Assembly: GCA_023248635.1 (NCBI GenBank)
Contig: JAHFED010000029.1
Span: forward strand, 1 to 35,963
Reading direction: 5' to 3'
DNA: 35,963 bases
Origin: Myxococcales bacterium
Lineage (GTDB): Bacteria; Myxococcota; UBA727; VGSZ01
In this document: in pieces, positions 24,780-29,803 of the stretch
Numbering within the stretch: the stretch's first letter is position 1
Layout of the letters: each line of letters begins with the position of its first letter
Position numbers and translations under genes: made by a program
The notes under the pieces: generated by a model
Told to the model about the DNA's origin: nothing
What the model saw: only the letters and a program-made list of their open reading frames with translations
Database searches by the model: none

Positions 24780-25880
24780 ATGCCTCAGATGCTGCGGGTC
24801 AGCGTCCTCGTCGCCGCCCTCCTCGCCGGCCTGTGCGTGGCCGCGTGCGAGCGGCCGCCCGTCGCTGGACCTCCCGCCGTTGTCGACGACGATCGCGTGC
24901 TGCTCGACCTTCCCAGCTTCTTGCAGGACCGGCCCGCCATCGGGGGCAAGTGGTACGACTACAGCGTCGACGGCCACGTGCTCGAGCCCAAGAGCGAAGC
25001 GTGGATCCTCAAGGACGACGTCGACACTTCTGGCGCGCCAGCGCCTGAAGCAATAAACACTTTTGGTTTTCGCATCGCCAGCGTCTACGACGACGACAGC
25101 GGTGAAACCGGCCTCTTCACCCTCGAGGTCGTGAGGCGCGAGGGAGCGGTCTGGACGGACTCCGAGCTCTTCACCGCACCCGCCAATGTGAAAGATGGCG
25201 CTCCCGTGTGCGTCGATCTCGGCAGCAAGAGCGGCATCGACTGCGACGACGACGGTTGGCAGCTGCGCTTCACCTTGCAGAGTCGCCTGAGCGTGTTTGC
25301 GGCCTTTGCGGTGGCCGAGCCGGCCGTGTTTCTGGCCGACGGTGTGCTGGTCGCCCGCGTCGATGGGCTGTCGTCGTTGTCGGAGCTCCCCGATCCCGCC
25401 ACGCTGCAAACGCTCGACGACGAACCGGCCTTCGACAGCAGCGATTGGGACTTCTCCCGCTACGCAGCGGACCTGCCAGTGCCGGGCCGCGTCTTGGGAT
25501 CCCTGGCCCGCGCCGAAGCCGTTCCCTGGGACTTTGTCTCCGCCGACTTTGCCTTGGTGCGCTGGTCGGTGGCCCGCGTCGACGACGACACCTTGCGCTT
25601 TTCGCTGCAGCAACAGCCCATCGGGCGCGAAGATCTGACCATCCCCAAAGACCTCGGTGACAGCGTCGACGTCGACGTCAACGTGGGCGCCCTCCCCGTC
25701 TTTGTCTCCTTCAGCGCCGCCGATCTGCTGACGCCCGCCGCGGACCTGGCTGGCTCGAGCTGGCCCCTGCAGCCCCCCTTCGCCAAGCGCTACGACCTCG
25801 TCATCGAAGACGACGCCGGCACGGGCGAGCTGCAACTGCTCTTGTCGCCGGCGACGGCGGCCCTTCACCTGGATCCCTGA
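24780..25880 (+). CDS. Predicted lipoprotein, possible HmuY-related partner
   Basis: 366 residues. Signal peptide with lipobox VAAC (Cys23). The middle (GGKWYDYSVDGHVLEPKSEAW, about 55-78, key Trp-Tyr-Asp-Tyr) recalls the YYxYDxxxGHVV opening of HmuY-type heme-binding lipoproteins, but I cannot confirm the domain across the rest, which is beta-rich with many Asp. A hairpin-forming palindrome at 25027-25050 lies in frame at about residues 83-91. It ends 8 bp before the HmuY-like gene, so both are co-transcribed. Function otherwise unknown. Confidence 0.75.
   Translation: MPQMLRVSVLVAALLAGLCVAACERPPVAGPPAVVDDDRVLLDLPSFLQDRPAIGGKWYDYSVDGHVLEPKSEAWILKDDVDTSGAPAPEAINTFGFRIASVYDDDSGETGLFTLEVVRREGAVWTDSELFTAPANVKDGAPVCVDLGSKSGIDCDDDGWQLRFTLQSRLSVFAAFAVAEPAVFLADGVLVARVDGLSSLSELPDPATLQTLDDEPAFDSSDWDFSRYAADLPVPGRVLGSLARAEAVPWDFVSADFALVRWSVARVDDDTLRFSLQQQPIGREDLTIPKDLGDSVDVDVNVGALPVFVSFSAADLLTPAADLAGSSWPLQPPFAKRYDLVIEDDAGTGELQLLLSPATAALHLDP
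25027..25050. repeat. In-frame palindrome, copy A (10-4-10 hairpin)
   Basis: Arms CTTCTGGCGC and GCGCCTGAAG, one mismatch, loop GCCA. The right arm is identical to that of copy B at 27073-27082, and both encode the same SGA-x-APE peptide in the same frame. An AT-richer stretch with TTGGTTTT follows. Confidence 0.6.
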
Positions 25881-25888
25881 GGCTGGTC

Positions 25889-26659
25889 ATGAGGCTCTTG
25901 CTCTCGGCATCGATCGTCGTCGTCACGGGCCTGGCTGCCTGCGCGCAACCGCCCGTCGCCACCGAGGGGGAAGGCGAGGGCGAGGGCGAGCCCGCCGCCA
26001 CCTGCACCGAAGCGGTGGCGGTGCCCTGTCGCGACGACGTCTTTGGCACCCTGTCGATGAGCCTCGATGAGACGGCCACCGGCGTCATCGACAACGTCGT
26101 CGACGGCGACGGCTATGACACTGGCGTCGACGCCCGCAGCAACGGCGCCTTCGCCAGCGGGCCCTGGGTCTATGGACGCTTCACCGAGGCCGGCCTCGAA
26201 AAAGTCGAGCTCTTCGACGACGAAAGCCTGGATTCCCTCGACTGGGACATCGCCTTTCAGCGCTTCGTCATCCGCCTCAACTCCGGCTTCGGCGGGCCCT
26301 CGTGCGTGAGTGCCGCCCGCACCGCGGTGGACACCGACTTCGAGACTCTCGACGCCGTGCCCGCGGGGCTGAACTTCAATGGCGAAGAGTTCATGACCGA
26401 CAACGGCGACGGCTCGTGCACCATCGTCCCCGACGGCAGCGGCCAGGGTTCGCCCGGCGTGGTGCTGCAAAACTGGTGGGAGTACCCGGGCTGTGTGGCG
26501 ACGACGGGCAACGTCTACGTCGTCAGCTTGAGCGATGGCCGACGCGTCAAGCTCGTGGTCACCCAGTACTACGGACAGGGCCAGGAGCTGTGCAACGACG
26601 GCACGCGCGGTGAGTCGCAGTCGGCCTTGGTGCGCTTCCGCTGGGCCTTCCTGCCTTGA
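25889..26659 (+). CDS. HmuY-like lipoprotein
   Basis: 256 residues. Lipobox LAAC (Cys18), then an EGEGEGEGE linker (27-35). The body has the HmuY hallmark segment LDSLDWDIAFQRFVIRLNSG (about 110-129; key Trp-Asp-Ile-Ala-Phe and Arg-Leu-Asn-Ser-Gly), preceded by WVYGRFTEAGLE and followed by a second half with the VVTQYYG strand. HmuY proteins bind heme at the cell surface in Bacteroidetes; the domain also occurs in Myxococcota, where ligands are less clear. TGAGG precedes the ATG, and the stop overlaps the next gene's TTG start as TTGA. Confidence 0.82.
   Translation: MRLLLSASIVVVTGLAACAQPPVATEGEGEGEGEPAATCTEAVAVPCRDDVFGTLSMSLDETATGVIDNVVDGDGYDTGVDARSNGAFASGPWVYGRFTEAGLEKVELFDDESLDSLDWDIAFQRFVIRLNSGFGGPSCVSAARTAVDTDFETLDAVPAGLNFNGEEFMTDNGDGSCTIVPDGSGQGSPGVVLQNWWEYPGCVATTGNVYVVSLSDGRRVKLVVTQYYGQGQELCNDGTRGESQSALVRFRWAFLP
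25962..25983 (+). repeat. 22-bp repeat encoding an EGEG linker, copy 1
   Basis: Identical to 27971-27992. Here it encodes the linker right after the lipobox of the HmuY-like protein. Confidence 0.65.
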
Positions 26660-28176
26660 GCCCGCGCGTTTTGACTGGGTTGGTGCTGCTGCTGGCGACG
26701 ACGGCGGCGGCGCGTCCCGACGATCCGGGCTCGGATCTCTTCAGCTTCGACGTCGGCGACGAGGTGCTCACCTTCGATTCGGCGCGTTTCAGATTTCACT
26801 ATTCCCTGGCAGGAACGCACGCCATTCCTGCTGCAGATGATGACGCGTCCGGAGTGCCAGACCACCTCGAGGAGCTGGCGGAGATCTACGAGGGCGCCCT
26901 TGAGCTTTATGTCGAGCTCGGCTACCGCGCCCCCGTTTCCGACGAGAACCAGGGCGACAACGGCGGCGACGGCCGCTTCGATGTCTACCTGGTCGACTTC
27001 GCCTTGACCGCCGACGGCGCCTACCGACCTGAGAATTGCATCGCCGCAGTGCCAAATGCTTCAGGCGCTCGCGCGCCTGAAGTGTGCTCTGGTTTTATGG
27101 TGCAGGAGAACGATTTCCGCGGTTATGGTTATCCCAGCGTCAGCATCGCCAACCGCACCGTCGCCAGCCACGAGCTCTTCCACGCCGTGCAAGCGGCCTA
27201 CGACAACGGCCAGGGCGCGGTGATGGCCGAGGGCACCGCGGTGTGGGCCAGCGAGCGCTTCGACCCTTCGCTCTTCGATCTCGAGGGCTTCTCCTCCGGC
27301 TACCTCGACGACGCCGAGACCTCCCTGGATTCCCCCTCCTCTGGTGCCGTCGACCCCTTCAGCTACGGCGCCGCGGTGTTCTTTCTGTCGCTGAGCGAGC
27401 GCTACGGTGACGATGTGCTCTTGCACTTGTGGGAGCACACCGAAAACGGCGCCGCCGGCATCGACGACCCCTTCTGGTTCGACGTCATCGACGGCGTGCT
27501 GCAGGAGGACGCCGGCGTTACTTTTGCCGACGCCTTCACCGAGTTCTCCGCTTGGACCCTGTTCACCGGCCGGCGCGCCGATGCCGCGCGTGGCTTTGCC
27601 CACGGTGAGGACCTCTCAGAACGCGAGGCCGAGGTGCTCGAGCTCCCCGTCGACCGGGCCAGCTTCGTCGTGTTCACGTCGTCGTCGCGGCTGGTGCGGG
27701 TGGTGCCCCGCGGTCGTTCGCAGGTGGCCGTGGCCCTGAGCGGCGATCCCGTGAACTTCGACGGCATGACGCTGTTCTTGCTGCCCATCGACCTCAACGC
27801 GGGCCCCAAGGAGCTCGTCTCCGTCTCCGACGTCGCCGCCGGCGGCATCGTCGACCTCGGCATCGACGACGAGCTCTTGGTCCTCTTGGTCAACGCCCGC
27901 CAACAAGGCCAAGGCGCCCGTCCCACCCTCTGCATCGGCGACGAAGCCGAAGTCGCTGCGTGCACGGCAGCCGAGGGGGAAGGCGAGGGCGAAGGCGAAG
28001 GCGACGTCGTCGTCGACCCGCCCCGGGGCTGCGGCTGCGGAGCGCTGCCCGGGACCTGGGCCATGGGCGGGATCGCGCTGCTTGCGTTGGCGCCGAAGCG
28101 GCGGCACCGTAGTCGGCATGGCACCTCTCCTCGGGCCCGTGCTCTTGTTGGCGCTGCAGACCAGCGGCGATCCTGA
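26656..28176 (+). CDS. HExxH metalloprotease of the MXAN_6640 type with MYXO-CTERM-like tail
   Basis: 506 residues starting at TTG, which overlaps the previous stop (TTGA) and opens a signal peptide ending AAARPD. The zinc motif HELFH (172-176) is followed at about 192 by EGTAVWASE, the arrangement of MXAN_6640-family putative metalloproteases. An early Ca-site-like DNGGDGRFDVYLVD is also typical. The C-terminus has an EGEGEGEGEG linker, then GCGCGALPGTWAMGG, a hydrophobic stretch and KRRHRSR, a MYXO-CTERM-like sorting tag; a further 20 residues follow. Probably secreted or surface-held and active. It lies in one unit with the HmuY-like lipoprotein and overlaps the next gene by 59 bases. Confidence 0.85.
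   Translation: MSPRVLTGLVLLLATTAAARPDDPGSDLFSFDVGDEVLTFDSARFRFHYSLAGTHAIPAADDDASGVPDHLEELAEIYEGALELYVELGYRAPVSDENQGDNGGDGRFDVYLVDFALTADGAYRPENCIAAVPNASGARAPEVCSGFMVQENDFRGYGYPSVSIANRTVASHELFHAVQAAYDNGQGAVMAEGTAVWASERFDPSLFDLEGFSSGYLDDAETSLDSPSSGAVDPFSYGAAVFFLSLSERYGDDVLLHLWEHTENGAAGIDDPFWFDVIDGVLQEDAGVTFADAFTEFSAWTLFTGRRADAARGFAHGEDLSEREAEVLELPVDRASFVVFTSSSRLVRVVPRGRSQVAVALSGDPVNFDGMTLFLLPIDLNAGPKELVSVSDVAAGGIVDLGIDDELLVLLVNARQQGQGARPTLCIGDEAEVAACTAAEGEGEGEGEGDVVVDPPRGCGCGALPGTWAMGGIALLALAPKRRHRSRHGTSPRARALVGAADQRRS
26809..26831. repeat. Small hairpin within the metalloprotease gene
   Basis: Arms GCAGGAA (26809-26815) and TTCCTGC (26825-26831) around a 9-nt loop, in a locally AT-richer part of the coding region. 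Confidence 0.4.
27059..27082. repeat. In-frame palindrome, copy B (10-4-10 hairpin)
   Basis: Perfect arms CTTCAGGCGC and GCGCCTGAAG around TCGC, coding for ASGARAPE in the metalloprotease. Same arms and frame as copy A at 25027. A stretch with TGGTTTT follows, as at copy A. Confidence 0.65.
27971..27992 (+). repeat. 22-bp repeat encoding an EGEG linker, copy 2
   Basis: Identical to 25962-25983. Here it encodes the linker just before the MYXO-CTERM-like tag. Confidence 0.65.
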
Positions 28177-29803
28177 AGAGCTGCGCGAACAGCCCGCGCT
28201 CCCCGCCGTCGAGAGCAAGCCCGTCGAAAGCAAGGTCGAGGCTGGGGAGAAGAAACCCGAGCCCCCCGAACCCGGTTCCATCGAGGAGCACAGGGACATC
28301 GCCCTCCTGCAAGCCCTCGAGGGACGCCTCTCCGTCGGCGACACGCTGGGACCCAAGGACGTCGACGTGCTGCTCCGGCTGCTCTCGTCGAGCCCTGCCC
28401 CCCGCGCCCGCGCGCTCGCCGCCGCCGTGCTGCCCTGGCTCGAGCCTCCCGTGGCCGCGCCGCCTTTGTTTGCCGCCTCCCGCGACGCCGATGCTCGGGT
28501 GCGGGCCACCGCCGGTCAGTCGTTGGTGGCCCTGGCGCGACGCCTGCCCGACGACGTCAAGAAGTCCGCCGCCACTGTCGGTCTGTCGCTGCTCGACGAT
28601 CCCAGTGATGAAGTGGGCTGCGCCGGTGCCGAGCTGCTCGCCGCCCTCACGCCATCCGATTTGAGCCGTGCCAACGGCTCAAACATCAGCACTGTGCGCG
28701 ATGCCTTCGACGTGCGGGCAAAGACCGCTTCCGACGTGCGCTACGCCTGCTTCGTGCGCCACGGCGGGTTGCCCGCTCGAGCCGTCAACATGCCGCCCCT
28801 GCCCCCAGACCCCGACGCCAACAAGCCGAAAACGACGACGTCGGGGCAGCCGGCTGTCGCCCCACCACCAGGTGCAGCGCCCAAGCAATGGTTGTTTGTG
28901 GCCACCGCCGCGAGCACCGGACTCCTCGCTGGCGGAGGCTTACCGGGCGCCTTCGTGCCCTCGCGCGATGTGCTCGTGTACGACGACCGCGAGAGCAAAC
29001 TGTCGCGCGAAGAAGTTTCCGTGCTGACCCAAGGGGGCACGGCCTTGCTCGGAGCGGTGGCCCTGGGTGGTGCGGCCTGGGGAACGGAGTTGATCCTCGG
29101 TCCCTTGTCGACGACGGAGGCGACCAGCGTCCTGGGGGCTGCGGGCGCGGGCACTGTCTTGGGCGCGGGGCTGGGCCTGATGGCGGGGCTCGACGGCAGC
29201 GGCCAATCGCTCTCGCTCTCGCTGGGATCCCTGGGCGGCTTCGTCGGCGGCGCCGCCCTCGCTTATGGGCTCGACCTCGACGACGACGACAACGCCTTGA
29301 TGGCCTCCGCCATGGTGATGGGGGGGCTCGCCAGTGCGCTGGGGGCCTTCACCGCGGTGCCCGTGGGCCTTGACGAGGTGTTCTTGGCGCAGCGTTCCAA
29401 TTTTGGTCTGGGCGCGGGGTTGACGGGGGCGGGTCTGTTCGGGCTCGTGGCCCTCGGCGTTGGCGCCTTCTCCGATCTGCCGGCGTCGCGCTCGGCGGCC
29501 GTCGTCGCCGGCGGGTTGATGGGAGGCGGGCTGCTGACGGGCCTTGGCTTCTTGATCGTGCCCAAAGAGATCGACACCAGCTCGCGCATCGCCTGCGGCT
29601 TGGGTTTGTCGGGGCAGGCCATCGGCATGGCGCTGGCGCTGGTGCTCATTCCCGACCAGTGGTTGGCCATCAGCAGCCCCGCCGTCATCGACGTCACCGC
29701 CAAAGAAGCTCGCTTCGGTTTGCCCCTGCCGGTGGTGTTTGCGCCGCTGCCCGGTCGCAGCGACGCCCCCATCGGCATCACCCTGGTGCGCGCGCGCTTC
29801 TGA
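28118..29803 (+). CDS. HEAT-like domain plus Gly-rich multi-helix membrane protein
   Basis: 561 residues from the ATG at 28118; a longer frame from 28082 exists, but 28118 begins a good signal peptide (APLLGPVLLLALQ). Residues about 55-190 look like HEAT-type helical repeats (ALAAAVLPWLEPP, RDADARVRATAGQSLVALAR, DDPSDEVGCAGAELLAAL). A Pro-rich linker (about 220-250) leads to roughly nine Gly/Ala-rich hydrophobic segments. I do not recognise the whole protein; an envelope role is inferred from topology. It overlaps the metalloprotease gene by 59 bases and ends the four-gene unit. Confidence 0.78.
   Translation: MAPLLGPVLLLALQTSGDPEELREQPALPAVESKPVESKVEAGEKKPEPPEPGSIEEHRDIALLQALEGRLSVGDTLGPKDVDVLLRLLSSSPAPRARALAAAVLPWLEPPVAAPPLFAASRDADARVRATAGQSLVALARRLPDDVKKSAATVGLSLLDDPSDEVGCAGAELLAALTPSDLSRANGSNISTVRDAFDVRAKTASDVRYACFVRHGGLPARAVNMPPLPPDPDANKPKTTTSGQPAVAPPPGAAPKQWLFVATAASTGLLAGGGLPGAFVPSRDVLVYDDRESKLSREEVSVLTQGGTALLGAVALGGAAWGTELILGPLSTTEATSVLGAAGAGTVLGAGLGLMAGLDGSGQSLSLSLGSLGGFVGGAALAYGLDLDDDDNALMASAMVMGGLASALGAFTAVPVGLDEVFLAQRSNFGLGAGLTGAGLFGLVALGVGAFSDLPASRSAAVVAGGLMGGGLLTGLGFLIVPKEIDTSSRIACGLGLSGQAIGMALALVLIPDQWLAISSPAVIDVTAKEARFGLPLPVVFAPLPGRSDAPIGITLVRARF
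28660..28683. repeat. In-frame palindrome, copy C (10-4-10 hairpin)
   Basis: Perfect arms TTTGAGCCGT and ACGGCTCAAA around GCCA, inside the HEAT-like gene. Geometry and loop match copy A although the arm sequence differs. Confidence 0.6.

Follow-up and report, generated by a model that had tools for sequence, protein, structure and literature searches.

The best-known selfish palindromes that insert in frame into conserved genes are those of Rickettsia, and we describe here a similar phenomenon in a Myxococcota genome. The Rickettsia palindromic elements (RPEs) are palindromic selfish DNA that lies in frame inside conserved protein genes (PMC2229807, PMC10969869). REPs are 20-40-bp palindromes of high copy number, mostly intergenic but with some copies in genes, whose subfamilies have covarying stems; the CGTC REPs, which include RPE-4, RPE-6 and the Neisseria dRS3, are short hairpins with 4-5-nt loops, copies in genes and no known transposase (PMC3733652).

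The DNA analyzed here (the window) is a 35,963-nt contig, C49, of an assembly (G000) of 6.53 Mb in 135 contigs. Three hairpins, A, B and C, each with 10-base arms and a 4-base loop, lie in three different genes of the window (Table 1), and they are members of a superfamily of REP-like palindromic repeats in this genome. Each of them is probably a single copy of a very small, non-autonomous palindromic mobile repeat that has spread through the genome. An earlier note on this DNA, made from the sequence of the window, had placed all three hairpins correctly, and it was right that A and B have the right arm GCGCCTGAAG in common and that A and C have the loop GCCA in common. It had also listed TGGTTTT, 3' of A and B, as a shared feature; this is host sequence, and orthologues that lack the palindrome read GGCTTC or GGCTAC there (Gly-Phe or Gly-Tyr). 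The window contains five perfect hairpin registers, compared with a mean of 1.4 in Markov-3 sequence, which is barely above chance. The strength of the case comes from the remainder of the genome and from the relatives. An Rfam search of the window gave no match.

Table 1. Hairpins, repeat units and genes discussed in the text, with positions in the window.
Feature	Position	Strand	Description	Basis
Host gene of A	24780..25880	+	unassigned in Pfam and NCBIfam	orthologue in the syntenic locus of G002
Unit A with tail	25024..25062	+	between direct repeats ACACTT (25024-25029 and 25057-25062), exactly 33 nt apart	sequence; script
Hairpin A	25027..25050	+ (GCCA on +)	beta family; CTTCTGGCGC-GCCA-GCGCCTGAAG; one mismatch	residues absent from orthologues L076 and L077
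HmuY-like gene	25889..26659	+	between the host genes of A and B; no insert	PF14064; synteny
Host gene of B	26656..28176	+	MXAN_6640-family putative metalloprotease	NF045524, E=7e-65
Unit B with tail	27048..27084	-	between CACT on the - strand (27081-27084 and 27048-27051), 33 nt apart	sequence; script
Hairpin B	27059..27082	-	beta family; perfect 10-bp arms; loop TCGC on + (GCGA on -); tail on -	exactly 33 nt absent from four orthologues
Host gene of C	28082..29803	+	HEAT-repeat protein; start probably 28118	PF13646
Hairpin C	28660..28683	+	gamma family; TTTGAGCCGT-GCCA-ACGGCTCAAA; perfect	exactly 33 nt absent from four orthologues
Tail of C	28684..28692	+	CATCAGCAC; 9 nt, the form of the gamma tail that keeps the frame	sequence; gamma tail lengths inside and outside genes

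A search of the whole genome for the pattern, as the earlier note had proposed, found it recurring throughout. The unit consists of a 24-nt hairpin (arms of about 10 bp and a conserved 4-nt loop, GCCA) and a 3' tail of 9-11 nt, and it measures 33 nt in genes. There are four stem families, alpha (TTCAAGACGC), beta (CTTCAGGCGC, with A and B), gamma (TTTG[A/C]GCCGT, a sister stem family to beta, with C) and delta ([A/G]TTCATCGCC), and in every one the stem arm is followed by GCCA and then by the complementary arm. The total comes to about 1000 copies, mostly between genes and sometimes inside them. With at most two mismatches, alpha has 211 and 187 matches on the two strands (about 398) and gamma 197 and 151 (about 348); since GCCA and TGGC differ at four positions, the counts of the two strands represent different copies. 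The beta pattern of A and B has 37 matches per strand at the same threshold, some of them in tandem arrays with a period of 32 on contig C60 and of 33 on C112 and C31.

The same loop emerged when no template was used. The 400 kb examined on contig C9 contain 36 perfect 10-4-10 hairpins, 27 of which carry the loop GCCA/TGGC, while the Markov-4 control gave three to seven hairpins with unrelated loops. A sample of 1.63 Mb (25% of the genome, drawn partly from contigs that had given hits, its genes predicted with a simple codon model) contains 391 hairpins in 178 arrays, of which 100 are singletons. The loop is GCCA in 320/402 hairpins, the total ranging from 384 to 402 with slightly different score cut-offs between scripts. 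Over all families the paired positions covary, with 1600 of 1900 cells Watson-Crick as compared to 1049 after shuffling; the excess is small within alpha alone or beta alone, so most of the covariation is between families, where it may reflect separate origins as well as selection. The hairpins are predicted to fold stably as DNA and as RNA, on both strands. The d(cGNNAg) motif is a stable DNA tetraloop, and as a lead it would suit the loop in three families, alpha, beta and delta, whereas gamma does not fit.

Several other repeats were seen in this genome. A fifth hairpin repeat, TCAGTTGAGT-GCAA-ACTCAACTGA, has four copies in the sample (G000:C9:83699, C96:94137, C112:12277 and C33:22783). 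At G000:C36:30295-30671 (L122), a second hairpin, ACCGACA...TGTCGGT, stands in alternation with delta arrays, and AATTC bounds both units, giving a 63-nt period. Three stacked hairpins (CTCGTCGAGGCTTCGCCTCGACGAG, GGAGGGTCTGGGACAGACCCTCC and GTGCGAAAAACGGAGTTTTTCCGCAC) occupy positions 1-123 of the window, are found again at L014 (G000:C8, ~10,830), and have further copies in the genome. A longer repeat, about 240 bp in length and containing several inverted repeats, occurs at G000:C9:168234-168494 and about 50 other sites in the sample (81-97% identity between copies); as far as could be seen, it has no relation to the GCCA hairpins.

The comparison with orthologues, also suggested in the earlier note, revealed that the residues and the palindrome are both absent from them. 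The order of the host genes of A, HmuY, B and C is kept in a relative of the same genus (G002). Profile searches gave matches to the CglB and MXAN_6640 models, which point to Myxococcota. At B and at C, the missing stretch is exactly 33 nt and coincides with the palindrome in each of the four relatives' orthologues aligned for each gene. At A, the gap is 30 nt against L076 and is placed differently against L077, yet the two copies of the direct repeat ACACTT around it are spaced by exactly 33 nt. Beyond the window, the B12 domain of MetH is longer by 11 residues than in solved structures and in five relatives, and methionyl-tRNA formyltransferase (Fmt) has 11 extra residues that correspond to a 33-nt gap in its orthologues; a histidine kinase, in a more distant comparison, has a 9-residue gap. 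The 33-nt gaps at B, C, MetH and Fmt thus bear out the suggestion that the palindrome enters several genes in frame: several host genes have received an in-frame insertion of 33 nt, which adds 11 amino acids. In the MetH domain model (pLDDT 79) the insert sits in the loop that connects a helix and a strand. Insert B lies about 30 residues upstream of the HExxH motif of its host protein, for which the AlphaFold model is too weak to interpret (pLDDT 55). The end of the same gene (window 27950-28176) encodes a Glu-Gly tract and a Cys-Gly, hydrophobic, Arg-rich tail, and it overlaps the start of the host gene of C; we take this C-terminal tail to resemble a MYXO-CTERM sorting signal.

Selection for the reading frame acts on the copies inside genes. 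Tandem spacings are multiples of three in 14/14 cases within genes and in 62/174 between genes (p=1.4e-6), although the 14 come from eight arrays and are not all independent, and gamma tails end at a multiple of three in 9/9 cases in genes as compared to 8/76 outside (p=6e-8). Copies inside genes would then persist only if their length is a multiple of three. Arrays inside predicted genes number 36 of 178, with 24 of the 36 away from gene ends; genes make up 91% of the sample, yet hold only these few arrays, so insertion into genes is rare or its products are mostly removed. Each family has a preferred frame, with exceptions (alpha, FKTRQRLE; beta, ASGAxAPE; gamma, LSRANGSN; delta, GSSPGGDE).

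All these copies belong to one kind of repeat, and its alpha and gamma families are absent from close relatives, with no match in two genomes of the same genus (G001 and G002) or one of the same family (G003). Beta matches once in G002, with one mismatch, and has no match in G001 or G003. A degenerate alpha/beta/gamma pattern has 502 matches here and at most six in any of 194 other genomes, and no hairpin repeat family emerged when parts of G002 (272 kb) and G003 (120 kb) were scanned without a template. Alpha and gamma also had no match in the GTDB r220 collection, which may omit the window's own genome and very near ones. The near-identity of the copies suggests that the repeat may still be mobile. 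Six matches resembling CTCCCGACGC-GCCA-GCGTCGGGAG occur in a distant genome of the same phylum (G182, loci L086, L088 and L090), possibly an unrelated repeat sharing the loop. A phage or plasmid source was considered and rejected: the alpha, gamma and delta cores are absent from IMG/VR, and alpha is absent from PLSDB and INPHARED.

The boundaries of the unit offer some indication of how it is inserted. The left edge is abrupt at the base of the hairpin, while the right side bears the conserved tail, which in alpha, beta and delta ends in the element's own 5' start (AACTTC, CACTT and CAATTC, respectively). Immediately before the first copy stands AC in 25/63 alpha arrays and A in 10/13 beta and 37/40 delta arrays; gamma arrays have no flank preference before the first copy. 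Direct repeats of at least 5 nt bracket 23/37 alpha and 20/25 delta singletons, as compared to 5-7% in shuffled controls, but only 2/10 beta and 1/26 gamma singletons; these repeats include the element's own 5' arm and are therefore not clean target duplications. To this extent, alpha, beta and delta copies adjoin a short CACTTC/ACTTC or AATTC sequence that also ends the element. Orthologous sites without the insert agree in part: both same-genus relatives already carry GACTTC or GGCTTC at the MetH site and the two closest relatives carry GACCTC and CACCTC at the Fmt site, while at B, out of three close relatives, a single one shows CACCTC. Neighbors of the same family have the same orientation in 188 cases and the opposite in 10, so that arrays run head to tail. 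The strand carrying GCCA was also compared with local GC skew as a sign of replication-linked orientation, and the two were uncorrelated overall (171 arrays, rho 0.07-0.09); of the families, only delta reached p=0.04, with one of the three window sizes used and before any correction for multiple tests, and an apparent switch of orientation along C9 disappeared once all arrays were counted.

We infer that the element would insert beside a short CACTTC/AATTC-like site, that this target would pair with the 3' arm as the outer stem of the hairpin, and that every insertion would regenerate the target, so that later copies could stack head to tail; regeneration of the target would explain the prevailing order of the arrays. 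Gamma, the family of C, with neither a target preference nor a bracketing repeat, speaks against this model, which leaves it unaccounted for. The mover might be template switching at microhomologies, or an enzyme that recognizes hairpins and belongs to none of the families searched. Spread may even have been wholly passive, with replication slipping or switching templates at short direct repeats and no dedicated enzyme involved, a possibility to which we give about one chance in four: direct repeats of 4-8 nt bound the alpha and delta units at a spacing of 33-34 nt and tandem arrays are common, but slippage by itself would not account for copies dispersed to hundreds of separate loci and sharply bounded on the left, and gamma again has no bracketing repeat.

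A less probable reading is that these are ordinary GTAG-type REPs, spread by a RAYT/Y1 transposase that has since been lost or was missed in the assembly. Their size, hairpin form, high copy number and occasional copies in genes would fit, but GTAG lies within 6 nt of the hairpin in just 2/391 hairpins, the order is head to tail where REP dimers are mostly head to head, and the Y1 transposase (PF01797) was not found in the genome, which is 96.7% complete, whereas 5 of 14 control genomes matched. The IS110 transposase (PF01548) was likewise not found in the genome, with working controls; the Y2 search (PF04986), in which no control genome matched, carries no weight. A search for an autonomous master element, by all-against-all BLAST of the 1.63 Mb, found no gene-sized repeat bounded by these hairpins, and four gamma units beside a duplicated gene at C112:18244-20000 look fortuitous.

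The earlier note had offered as its alternative that the hairpins act as RNA pause or decay signals along the operon. It is very unlikely that selection maintains them as functional RNA signals, be it as terminators, pause sites or decay sites. The predicted stems are strong, and 32/126 intergenic arrays lie between convergent genes, a slight enrichment over the 17% of intergenic bases found there; however, the hairpins are not intrinsic terminators, as a T-tract follows 1/384 and 16/384 of them on the two strands, orientation in genes is mixed (15 sense, 21 antisense), and the hairpins are absent from the orthologous operons. Chance hairpins in a G+C-rich genome, which the near-expected count in the window alone would allow, can be dismissed in view of hundreds of near-identical copies with one conserved loop and the exact 33-nt gaps in orthologues.

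Under the mobile-repeat interpretation, which we prefer, an 11-residue insert is small enough to be accommodated in the cobalamin domain of MetH and in methionyl-tRNA formyltransferase. These genes provide natural 11-residue insertion variants of conserved enzymes, open to activity tests, and the repeat makes it possible to study the movement of REP-like palindromes in a case where no transposase has been recognized.

In comparison with known systems, the elements resemble small non-autonomous mobile repeats of the MITE kind (Correia/NEMIS, ERIC and RUP), which are sometimes fused in frame to genes; MITEs, however, are 70-300 bp long with terminal inverted repeats and usually target duplications, whereas a single hairpin with a one-sided tail is found here. 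CRISPR arrays also have palindromic repeats of about 24-35 nt at regular spacing, but their spacers are unique, while here the linker is nearly identical within each family and the copies are dispersed, also into genes. The 4-nt loop and the copies in genes are shared with the CGTC REPs, from which the present repeats differ in the tag (CGTC in 6/391 hairpins), the longer stems (10 bp), the different and longer tail, and head-to-head dimers that do not predominate. With the GTAG superfamily (REPs, BIMEs and REPINs) they share a 24-nt hairpin with a 9-11-nt tail in hundreds of copies; they differ in the scarcity of the GTAG tag, the Y1/RAYT gene that was not found, the GCCA loop common to different stems, and head-to-tail arrays in place of head-to-head dimers. 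We tentatively suggest, as a possibility short of an even chance, a third REP-like class, in which a GCCA tetraloop takes the place of the end tag, the site would become the outer pairs of the hairpin and be regenerated 3', copies would stack head to tail and enter genes as 33 nt, and the mover would be other than a Y1/RAYT transposase. The likeness to Rickettsia elements drawn in the earlier note holds for behavior, namely in-frame entry into several host genes, and fails for membership, since RPEs are about 105-150 nt long as compared to 33 nt (11 residues) here, nearer to REPs in size, the two being compared by description. Without GTAG or CGTC tags, a Y1 transposase or the length of an RPE, the elements are claimed as members of neither group; in their behavior they are like both REPs and RPEs.
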